Below, piece after piece: positions 44,667 to 48,681 of a DNA stretch of 64,000 nt. Below the pieces are notes generated by a model that saw nothing but the letters and a program-made list of their open reading frames with translations, was not told where the DNA came from and did not search any database. The translations under genes and the position numbers were made by a program. The stretch's first letter is position 1, and each line of letters starts with the position of its first letter. The DNA is taken from assembly GCA_021811235.1 (NCBI GenBank), contig JAJZPG010000001.1, positions 172,852 to 236,851 of the forward strand. Reading direction: 5' to 3'. This stretch comes from Pseudomonadota bacterium (GTDB taxonomy: Bacteria; Pseudomonadota; Gammaproteobacteria; Burkholderiales; Thiobacillaceae).

Positions 44667-45461
44667 ATGAATTTTCTCGCGGCCTCCATCGAATCGCTCG
44701 GCGCCAAGGTCGTCGGCTGGTTCACCGTCGGCTACGGCATGTTCGCCTTTCTGGTGCAGGCCACCCTCCTGCTGCTGGAGCGCGCCACCTGGAACCGCGC
44801 CACCTTCGACGTCGTGATCAAGCAGGTGTACTTCACCGCCGTGCAGATCCTGCATGTCTTCCTCGGCTACGTGCTGGTCATCTCGTGGCTCATCATCACC
44901 ATCATCCTGTCCACTGCACGCGATTTCGGCCTCACCGAATTCGCCAGCGAAATGACCATCCGCGTGCTGGTGCTGGAGCTCCTGCCCTTCCTCACCGCGC
45001 TGTTCATCGCCTTGCGCTCGGGCAGCGCGATCAATACCGAGGTCGCGCTGATGCAGGTCAACAGCGAATTGGATGCGCTGGCGCACTGCAAGGTTCCGCC
45101 GATGCAGTTCGAGTTCCTGCCGCGCTTGATCGGCGGCGTGATCTCGTCCGTCACGCTGGCCGGTCTGGCCGGGCTGCTCGCACTGCTGCTGGGCTATCTC
45201 GCCATCTACGGCACCACCGCGGCTGGCTTCGAGCCTTATACCCAGACCATCGCAAAGATTTTCGACTTCAGGATCGTCGCCGGACTCGTCATCAAATGCG
45301 CGCTGTTCGGCCTGGCGGTCACGCTGATCCCGGTCACCGCCGGGCTCGAAACGCCGAAGAAGCTGTTCATGGTGCCGGTGTCGGTGCTGCGCGGGATGAT
45401 GCGGGTGTTCTTCGCCATCGTGGCGATCGAGGTGGTGTCATTAGCGCTCAAGTACATCTGA
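44667..45461 (+). CDS. MlaE-family ABC permease
   Basis: LPFLTALFIALRSGSAINTEVALMQVNSELDAL typical MlaE core. Confidence 0.88.
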   Translation: MNFLAASIESLGAKVVGWFTVGYGMFAFLVQATLLLLERATWNRATFDVVIKQVYFTAVQILHVFLGYVLVISWLIITIILSTARDFGLTEFASEMTIRVLVLELLPFLTALFIALRSGSAINTEVALMQVNSELDALAHCKVPPMQFEFLPRLIGGVISSVTLAGLAGLLALLLGYLAIYGTTAAGFEPYTQTIAKIFDFRIVAGLVIKCALFGLAVTLIPVTAGLETPKKLFMVPVSVLRGMMRVFFAIVAIEVVSLALKYI

Positions 45462-45895
45462 TCCCGTTCGCCGACCGCGACGCGCTGCAGGCCGCGGTCG
45501 CCGCGCTGGCCGACGATGTGGCGCGCGTCTCGCACGAACTGCCGCTCCGGGCCAACCTGTCGGCACTCGACAACATCGCACTGATCCCGATCTACCAGCG
45601 CCATTTCAGCGTGGACGAATCGAACCGCCAGGCTTGGCAGCTGCTGGAACAGCTCGGCCACGCCGGCATCGCCGCCTTGCGCGATCCCGACATGACCCCT
45701 GCCCAACGCTTCGTCACCAAGCTTGCGCGCGCCCTCATCCTGCGGCGCCCACGCTTGGTGATCGACCGCCCCGGGGCCATGCTTTACGATGTGCCCTATC
45801 CCGCCTTCATCCGCAAACTGGCCGAGCAGGCGGAGATGACGGGCACCTGGGAAATTTTCGACTTCAGCTGGAACCAGACACTGTATCCGGAATGA
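45458..45895 (+). CDS. truncated/degenerate ABC-ATPase-like subunit of MCE system, probable CTG start
   Basis: Between mlaE- and MCE-type genes; NLSALDNIALIP...MTPAQRFVTKLARALILRRPRLVIDRP resembles the ABC signature/Walker B half without Walker A; CTGA overlap with upstream stop. Confidence 0.65.
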   Translation: MIPFADRDALQAAVAALADDVARVSHELPLRANLSALDNIALIPIYQRHFSVDESNRQAWQLLEQLGHAGIAALRDPDMTPAQRFVTKLARALILRRPRLVIDRPGAMLYDVPYPAFIRKLAEQAEMTGTWEIFDFSWNQTLYPE

Positions 45896-46818
45896 ACAAA
45901 CTGCATTTCAAGGTCGGACTGTTCACCGCTGCCTCGCTGCTGCTCGCGGGCGCTTTCGTCGTCTACCTGCTGCACGCGCGCGGCTTCTTCGAGAAGACCT
46001 ACCATCTGCAGCTGGCGGCGGCGAGCGCGGACGGCGTCGCGCCAGGCGTGCCCATCGTGTTCTCGGGGATTGAAATCGGCCGCGTCACCACGCTGGGCCT
46101 GAACGACAGCGGCGGCATCGTCATCCGCACCGAATTCCTCGAACGCAACGCCAAATGGCTGAAGGAGACCAGCACCTTCACGCTCGACAAGCCGCTGGTC
46201 GGCGGCGCCAAGATCCGCGTCGACTCACCCGACCTCAATGCCCCGGCGCTGCCCGACAATTCCACCATGCTGCTGCTCACCTCCGACATCAGCAAGGAGA
46301 TCCCGGCGCTGGTCGAGCGGGTGAAGGCGATTCTCGCCAACGTCGAGTACCTCACCCGCAAGGACGGCGAGATCAACGCCACGCTCGCCAACTTCAAGAC
46401 CCTGAGCGGACGCATGACCGGCGAACACGGCATGCTCGAAGGCATACTGGGCAGCCCGGAGAAAGCCCGAGCAGTGACCGACTCGCTCGACAAGACCCGT
46501 GCCCTCATGGCCAGGCTCGACAGCCTGGCGGCCAAGAGCGATCAGTGGCTGTTTGCCAAGGAAGGGGTGGCCGAGCAAACGCGCGAATCGCTGGTGCAGA
46601 TGCGGCAGATGCTGAGCGACGCGCAGGCCAGCCTGAAGAAGGCCGACACCCTGATGGCCAATGCGGTGGAAATCTCCGCCGACGTCAAGGAAGGCACGCA
46701 GGACCTCGCCGCGCTGCGTACCGAGATCGACGATGCCGTGCGCAAGGCCAATGCGCTGGTCAACGAGATCAACAAGAAGTGGCCCTTCGCGCGCGACCCG
46801 GAGGTGAAGCTGCCATGA
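45892..46818 (+). CDS. MCE/MlaD family protein
   Basis: TM anchor then ASADGVAPGVPIVFSGIEIGRVTTLGL MCE domain; ATGA overlap. Confidence 0.9.
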   Translation: MNKLHFKVGLFTAASLLLAGAFVVYLLHARGFFEKTYHLQLAAASADGVAPGVPIVFSGIEIGRVTTLGLNDSGGIVIRTEFLERNAKWLKETSTFTLDKPLVGGAKIRVDSPDLNAPALPDNSTMLLLTSDISKEIPALVERVKAILANVEYLTRKDGEINATLANFKTLSGRMTGEHGMLEGILGSPEKARAVTDSLDKTRALMARLDSLAAKSDQWLFAKEGVAEQTRESLVQMRQMLSDAQASLKKADTLMANAVEISADVKEGTQDLAALRTEIDDAVRKANALVNEINKKWPFARDPEVKLP

Positions 46819-47483
46819 GGACGCTGCTCACCCTCGCCAGCCTGATCCTGCTCTCCGCCTGCGGCAGCGGCGGCCCGCCGCCGCCGGACTGGAAAACCGA
46901 CGCCGCCGACCTGATCGGGCGTTACCAGAAGCATGCGCTGCTGGGCGAGAACATGCTGGCCGAGCGCTATTTCCAGCAGGCGGTTGCCGCGACCGGCGGT
47001 GCCGGCCGCGTCGCCGAGACGGCGCGCCTGTGGCTGGTGCGCTGTGCCACCCGCCGCGCCATGCTGATCGACGACGCCTGCGCCGAATACGCCGAACTGG
47101 CGGGCGCCGAGACGAACCCGGCCGACCAGGCCTATTACCGCTTCCTCACCCTGCGCTGGGAAGGGCTCGACCCCGCCCTGCTGCCCGGCCAGCATCGCGA
47201 CCTGGTGCGCGCCCCGGCCGACAAGCGGCCGGGGCTGCTGGATCGTATCGACGATCCGCTGGCGCGCCTGCTCGACGCCAGCCTGCTGGTGATGCGCCTG
47301 GAAGCCGACCGGAGCACTCTGGCGCTGGCGACGGAAACCGCGTCGGTGCAAGGCTGGCGGCAGCCGCTGCTGACCTATCTGAAATTGCAGCAGAAGCAGG
47401 CGGCCGCGCACAACGATACCGTGGAATCGGAGCGCCTCGCGCGACGCATTCGACTGGTCGAGCAAAGCCTCGCCAAGCCGTGA
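46815..47483 (+). CDS. MCE-operon lipoprotein
   Basis: Lipobox LLSAC; ATGA overlap with MCE gene. Confidence 0.78.
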   Translation: MRTLLTLASLILLSACGSGGPPPPDWKTDAADLIGRYQKHALLGENMLAERYFQQAVAATGGAGRVAETARLWLVRCATRRAMLIDDACAEYAELAGAETNPADQAYYRFLTLRWEGLDPALLPGQHRDLVRAPADKRPGLLDRIDDPLARLLDASLLVMRLEADRSTLALATETASVQGWRQPLLTYLKLQQKQAAAHNDTVESERLARRIRLVEQSLAKP

Positions 47484-47599: not shown

Positions 47600-48163
47600 A
47601 TGCTCGACTGGCTGTATGCACCCTGGCCCTGGTACGTCTCGGGGCCCCTGATCGGCCTGATGGTGCCGCTCATGCTGTGGATCGGCAATCGCTCGTTCGG
47701 CATCTCGAATAACCTGCGCCACATGTGCGCGATGGCGCAGCCCAAATCCGTCGGCGTCGACTTCTTCCACTACAACTGGCGCGACCACAGCTGGAGCCTG
47801 GTGTTCGCGGCAGGGGCCGTGCTCGGCGGGTTTTTCGCCGGCATCGTGTTCGCCAATCCGCAGCCGGTCGAGCTGTCCGTCGCCGCGCTCACCATGTTCT
47901 CCTACTGGAACGTCCCCATCGGCGGCGGCTTCCTGCCCCCGGTGCTGTTTGATTTCACCTGGCTGAGCGTGATCGTCATGTTCGCCGGCGGGGTCATGGT
48001 CGGTTTCGGCACGCGCTATGCGGCCGGATGCACATCGGGCCATGCCATCACCGGCCTGTCCACGCTGCAGCCGCAGTCCCTGCTCGCGGTGATGGGCATC
48101 TTTGCCGGCGGCTTGTTCTCAGCCCATTTCATCACCCCGCATCTCTTTTCCCTGTTCTGGTAA
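47600..48163 (+). CDS. YeeE/YedE family sulfur-compound transporter half
   Basis: [20 protein letters not shown]. Confidence 0.9.
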
Positions 48164-48168
48164 GCCCC

Positions 48169-48585
48169 ATGCGTTTTCTGCCCTATCTCCTCGCGGGGAT
48201 GGCGTTCGGTTTTGTCATGATCAAATCCGAGGCCGCCTCCTGGTATCGCATCATGGAAATGTTCCATTTCCAGTCCTTCCACATGTTCGGCATCATGATG
48301 AGCGCCATCGCCACCGGCCTCACCGGCGTGCTGCTGCTCAAGCGCTACGGCCGCATGCTCACCCTGGACGGCGAAGCCGTGGTCATCCCGAGCAAGGAAC
48401 CGGGACGTTACAACTACCTGTTCGGCGGCTTGATCTTCGGCCTCGGCTGGGGCGTCATCGGACTGTGCCCGGGCCCCATCTTCTCCCTCGTCGGCATGGG
48501 CTCGATCGGTGCGCTGGCAGCGCTGGCCGGTGCCCTGCACGGCACCTGGCTCTATGGCTGCATAAAAAACCGGTTGCCGCATTGA
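48169..48585 (+). CDS. second YeeE/YedE family half (PmpB-like)
   Basis: FGLGWGVIGLCPGPIFSLVGMG; 5 nt after the first half. Confidence 0.9.
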   Translation: MRFLPYLLAGMAFGFVMIKSEAASWYRIMEMFHFQSFHMFGIMMSAIATGLTGVLLLKRYGRMLTLDGEAVVIPSKEPGRYNYLFGGLIFGLGWGVIGLCPGPIFSLVGMGSIGALAALAGALHGTWLYGCIKNRLPH

Positions 48586-48681
48586 CAAGCCTGCGCGCGA
48601 TGATTACCGTGCTTGCTCGGAGAATTTTTCTTCGTCATAAAACCAAGCTGTAACCCGAATAGTGAAAAGGAGGAGGTACCC

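Follow-up and report, generated by a model that had tools for sequence, protein, structure and literature searches.

A four-gene operon (positions 44667–47483) of the window, i.e. the whole 64,000-nt stretch of DNA that was analysed, encodes an MlaE-family permease, an ABC-like protein devoid of a P-loop, an MCE protein and a helical lipoprotein, and the system is a variant of the MlaE/MCE type which is more widespread than a single locus could show. The preferred reading, which is given somewhat more credence than all others combined, is that the ABC-like protein represents a conserved pseudo-ATPase docked on its own permease, within an MCE conduit without a dedicated ATPase. In a search of the open-access literature, with subscription papers outside its scope, no earlier description of the system was found.

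Operon organisation

All four genes are located on the forward strand. The permease (MlaE3, 264 aa, 44667–45461) matched PF02405 with 134.8 bits (E 4.1e-39, cut-off 22.5), and the MCE protein (308 aa, 45892–46818) matched PF02470 with 30.5 bits (E 4.3e-7, cut-off 25.1), the latter being composed of a hydrophobic N-terminal helix, a single MCE domain and a long, helical-looking C-terminal part. Between these, positions 45440–45895 encode a protein of 151 aa with a probable start at the rare codon ATT, which was assigned as a stripped, catalytically dead relative of ABC nucleotide-binding domains on the basis of AlphaFold, Foldseek, family alignment, distribution and dN/dS. The last gene (46815–47483) encodes a 222-aa lipoprotein with the lipobox LLSACGSG, predicted by AlphaFold to form an all-helical, TPR-like solenoid (pLDDT 89, only helices); no Pfam family was found for it, and searches against the PDB returned no significant match. 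According to the annotation of the window, the ABC-like ORF is the only ABC gene of the operon. Directly 3′ of the operon, two ORFs (47600–48588) encode putative YeeE/YedE-like membrane proteins, as judged by sequence appearance.

The first-pass annotation, made from the sequence alone, had labelled the region as an MCE/Mla-type operon with the order permease, ABC-like protein, MCE protein and lipoprotein, and both the label and the order are borne out by the two Pfam families above their cut-offs and by the lipobox. It had also placed 4-nt overlaps at every junction, which holds for the ABC-like/MCE and MCE/lipoprotein junctions; the permease and ABC-like genes, in turn, overlap by 22 nt, because the start codon favoured by comparison of loci is the ATT at 45440 and not the codon at 45458. 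With this start, the length of about 145 aa initially given for the ABC-like protein is corrected to 151 aa.

A motor-position protein without catalytic motifs

The absence of a P-loop, as well as the sequences TPAQRF at the signature position and VIDRP at the Walker B position, were confirmed in the window protein, and the earlier claim of lost catalytic residues proved accurate in full, as P-loop, signature, catalytic Glu and switch His are all missing. The losses are common to the family: in an alignment of 35 diverse members, neither a P-loop (0/35) nor an SGG signature (0/35) was present, and the position of the catalytic Glu was occupied by Arg in 34 members and by Gln in one. Judged from these motifs, the 151-aa protein is presumably unable to bind or hydrolyse ATP in the usual way, and since the protein in the motor position carries no catalytic motif at all, the transporter is probably not powered by an ATPase of its own.

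The same alignment revealed residues invariant in the family (R37, N39, R90-F91, P111, Y120 and W144). The most conserved stretch, LPLRANLSxxENIA, aligns just past the Q-loop of MlaF, and in ABC transporters the Q-loop-adjacent side is the face toward the permease.

At the sequence level the relationship to ABC ATPases is distant. The Pfam ABC_tran model scored 15 bits, under its cut-off of 25, and the MlaF equivalog NF008809 gave no match even at E ≤1, while the three MlaF proteins of the same genome (MlaF1, MlaF2 and MlaF3) were matched at 1e-59 or better. A profile of the ABC-like family, in turn, matched ABC ATPases in the PDB (E 1.8e-5). The best AlphaFold model of the protein reached a pLDDT of 86 and a pTM of 0.83, with an input alignment of close relatives only and a spread of pLDDT from 86 to 56 over the five models, two of which were below 62. 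With this model, Foldseek returned 384 matches at E ≤0.001, the 50 listed all being ABC ATPases, and MlaF (6xbd_I) was matched with a TM score of 0.74. The predicted fold is thus ABC-like, and the objection that the fold might be of another kind fails.

The protein had been described as the second half of an ABC domain with lost catalytic residues. The ABC-like nature and the losses stand, but the protein is probably a stripped ABC core and not simply a second half, because about 30 residues have to be skipped in those structural alignments that are longest and score best: longer Foldseek alignments (ca. 170–184 columns for a query of 151 residues) tend toward higher TM scores. The model suggests that the strand at residues 4–10 and the helix at 13–21 occupy the place of the Walker A strand and first helix, with about 30 residues missing thereafter; this N-terminal part is linked to ABC proteins by the predicted structure and not by sequence. 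A motor split in two, with its P-loop half supplied by another gene, was also considered and rejected, as the 43 ABC matches of the genome showed no evident orphan N-terminal ABC half, the short P-loop-only matches lying within longer frames.

The permease and the source of power

A tree of 60 permeases placed the 41 from operons of the short-ABC type in one clade (support 100/99), set apart both from canonical MlaE and from the permeases of the permease-ATPase-MCE type. In MlaE the coupling helix mediates the contact with MlaF (PMC7790496). Its canonical motif G..M...E has changed to A..M...N in the MlaE3-type permeases: the first position is G in 16/16 canonical sequences and A in 37 of the 41, and the second is E in 15/16 canonical sequences and N in 33 of the 41.

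In the mechanism proposed, the 151-aa pseudo-ATPase would take the position of MlaF by docking on the coupling helices at the cytoplasmic side of its own permease, and would hold the permease dimer in shape or gate it. The MCE protein would form a periplasmic ring and tunnel above the permease, with the TPR-like lipoprotein as an envelope partner. The whole would constitute an MCE conduit for lipids that has no dedicated ATPase, either passive, driven by another energy source, or regulated by the pseudo-ATPase; the transporter would use no ATP, and its presumed substrate would be lipid. A non-catalytic remnant of a motor domain, serving its own permease, is the most likely role of the short protein. 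The first-pass annotation had left a choice between a structural or regulatory role and an ATPase supplied from elsewhere, and this choice is upheld as such.

The strongest competitor, rated at well under half the weight of the preferred reading, is the second branch of this choice, in which an intact MlaF from another operon, or an orphan MlaF, docks on MlaE3 and the short protein acts as an adaptor or regulator, as MlaB does for MlaF. Candidates are at hand. The genome of the window encodes intact MlaF1 and MlaF2, each beside its own permease, i.e. the two permeases other than MlaE3. A search for an orphan MlaF, suggested by the first-pass annotation, identified a third, unlinked paralogue (MlaF3, L195:5643-6449 of genome C61, 67% identical to MlaF1), located after gltA-sucA-sucB with no MlaE or MCE gene nearby. 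The same gene is found beside the same genes in a second genome (G053, L205:11094-11897, 84% identical), and due to this orphan a trans-acting ATPase is possible in Thiobacillus. More generally, at least one other MlaE is encoded in nearly all genomes with the short-ABC operon, and intact MlaF was present in four of the five genomes searched for it, so that a shared ATPase is usually available. The arrangement would resemble that of mycobacteria, in which MceG is shared between Mce systems, one report describing it as stabilising Mce1 and Mce4 alike (PMC9947336).

Several observations speak against power in trans. MlaF3 retains Walker A and signature, but in both copies the switch histidine is replaced by Tyr, and MlaE3 has departed from the canonical motif in its coupling helix. 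In genome G335 (96% complete; loci L088 and L130), the short-ABC operon is the only MlaE system, and no ATPase of MlaF grade was found, the best candidate scoring 162 bits vs 358–403 for the MlaF proteins of the other four genomes, although the genome is a draft, in which a gap covering a missing mla operon could explain the lack. In the three other searched genomes of its genus, every MlaF-grade gene adjoins a canonical MlaE gene.

An asymmetric motor, in which the short protein forms the dead half and one intact MlaF-type subunit the other, is improbable. Degenerate nucleotide sites are described as well known in ABC exporters (PMC7756269), and this precedent, together with the intact MlaF in four of the five genomes, lends the idea some credit. 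However, P-loop and signature motif are both gone from the short protein, so that neither composite nucleotide site could form normally, and G335 again offers no MlaF-grade partner.

Comparison with known systems

With MlaFEDB of the Mla system of E. coli and relatives, the operon shares an MlaE-family permease with a still recognisable coupling helix, an MCE protein, and a motor-position subunit with a predicted ABC nucleotide-binding fold. It differs in the motor-position protein itself (151 aa, without P-loop, signature, catalytic Glu and switch His), in its gene order (permease, motor, MCE, lipoprotein) with neither MlaB nor MlaC in the operon, in the long C-terminal part of the MCE protein, and in the TPR-like lipoprotein. 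The gene order is shared with permease-ATPase-MCE-lipoprotein operons, represented in the same genome by a second MCE operon (L133), which consists of a permease with an N-terminal, by eye STAS-like extension, an intact MlaF2, an MCE protein and a lipoprotein; in contrast to the operon of the window, its ATPase retains the motifs GGSGTGKS, LSGGM and DEPT, its permease gene is longer, and its lipoprotein is unrelated. Mycobacterial Mce operons, with their shared MceG, likewise contain no intact ATPase gene, but there the intact ATPase is encoded elsewhere, whereas the present operon has kept a dead ABC-like protein of its own. MCE proteins without an ABC motor are also found in the LetB and PqiB systems, which use LetA/PqiA-type membrane proteins rather than MlaE. 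Unlike LetA/LetB and PqiA/PqiB, the permease here is an MlaE by Pfam.

A probable start codon nested in the permease gene

Near the permease stop codon of the window, ATG, GTG and TTG are all absent in the frame of the ABC-like gene. Comparison of loci backed the ATT at 45440 as the start, as 74 of 83 loci carry this triplet precisely 19 nt upstream of the permease stop codon; the loci are related, and thus the counts are not independent, while the pattern repeats across families. A Shine-Dalgarno-like GAGGTG, placed inside the permease gene 5 nt 5′ of the ATT (45429–45434 in the window), precedes it in 70 of the 74 ATT-type loci, and in 68 of the 74 no in-frame ATG, GTG or TTG lies within up to 45 nt 5′ and 24 nt 3′ of it.

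The permease codons TCA TTA (45438–45443), which hold the ATT in the overlapping frame, are constrained correspondingly: TCA is found in 71 and TTA in 62 of the 74 loci, when elsewhere in the operon genes TCA accounts for 3.6% of Ser codons and TTA for 1.3% of Leu codons. All nine loci without the ATT (9/9) have other permease codons at the site and an ATG at −5 to +13 relative to the stop codon. Permeases not linked to the ABC-like gene (in G003, G004, G005 and G014) end in TCG or TCC followed by CTG. The ATT is therefore likely to be conserved as the start codon of the ABC-like gene, and it may entail low or coupled expression. In two genomes (G014 and G011; L105, L103, L174, L173) the permease and ABC-like genes are not adjacent or are separated by a contig end, and in both a similar new sequence stands before the ABC-like gene, with the ATT retained. 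The CTG at 45458, which would give a 4-nt overlap, was rejected as the start, since members of family f35 are without the CTG and retain the ATT.

The alternative that −1 frameshifting yields the protein solely as a permease fusion, with the ATT serving no role in initiation, is very improbable. The ABC-like frame is indeed −1 relative to the permease and open 5′ of the ATT in most loci, but visual inspection of the short overlap showed no slippery heptamer, the frame opens just three codons before the ATT in L119 and L120, members without the ATT carry the ATG near the permease stop instead, and GAGGTG is maintained at start-codon spacing.

In Escherichia coli, initiation at AUU is known for infC and pcnB (PMC9410913, PMC4245954). 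The ABC-like gene shares with them the ATT as a start codon, and differs in that its ATT lies within the overlapping gene upstream and is conserved in several families of bacteria.

Distribution and selection

In a scan of GTDB genomes, 47 loci, mainly of Thiobacillus, encode the ABC-like protein at 72–89% identity. Profile matches were obtained in about 109 of the 117 genomes of the family to which the window belongs, a slight overcount, since no fewer than two matches (those in G086 and G098, with E of about 1e-6) resemble ordinary ABC genes. Genomes from five other families of the same order (f11, f24, f30, f35 and f47) matched with E <1e-25, and one genome elsewhere in the class (G641) also contains the operon. 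In the relatives fetched with flanks, the genes for the ABC-like protein, the MCE protein and the lipoprotein occur together in 38/38, and the permease gene is directly upstream of the ABC-like gene in 35/38, the remaining three (G004, G011 and G014) having the permease elsewhere or at a contig end. The median dN/dS of the ABC-like gene was 0.18 over 1100 pairs, compared with 0.115 for the permease, and by this measure the ABC-like gene is under purifying selection.

Conservation of the truncated gene in relatives had been proposed as a check in the first-pass annotation: the short form proved widespread, and full-length MlaF is absent from this place in the homologues. A recent truncation or an assembly error is thereby ruled out by the conservation in the family and in the other families. 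The catalytic residues are correctly called lost, but not recently, because a single permease clade spans several families; by this comparison of sequences, the short form is ancient and the motor gene was replaced long ago. That every catalytic motif is lost might hint at a decaying mlaF remnant persisting by chance, or at an annotation artefact, which is scarcely credible against the presence in nearly all genomes of the family and in several others, the low dN/dS, the new invariant residues, and the constraint on the overlapping permease gene at the ATT site.

In a distant family of the same class, three genomes (G624, G774 and G775; L139, L141 and L142) encode a full-length, motif-less ABC protein between the MlaE and MCE genes. 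Their losses include, e.g., GADNMGKND in place of the P-loop, the absence of LSGGQ, and the replacement of DEP by EKP or EAP. With regard to a sister relation, the profile of the short protein matched these proteins slightly better than MlaF (2e-9 vs 3.5e-8), and the permease tree, in which the branches are long, does not group their permeases with the short-ABC type. Coming from a separate lineage, they suggest that a dead ATPase in an MCE operon is no isolated accident.

Implications

A broader form of the preferred reading is put forward tentatively, and with rather more doubt than confidence: a class of MlaE-type MCE transporters may have given up ATP, with the motor reduced to a non-catalytic docking core which would shape or gate the permease, lipid being moved without hydrolysis, and the core being made from an ATT nested in the permease gene.

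Both the energy source of MCE systems and the direction of their lipid transport are under debate. A conserved operon of the MlaE type whose motor is dead would offer a natural test of whether permease and MCE tunnel can function in the absence of ATP. For AUU start codons, known from two genes in E. coli, the ABC-like gene adds a comparative case. For annotation, the combination of MlaE, ABC and MCE genes is no proof of an active ABC transporter.
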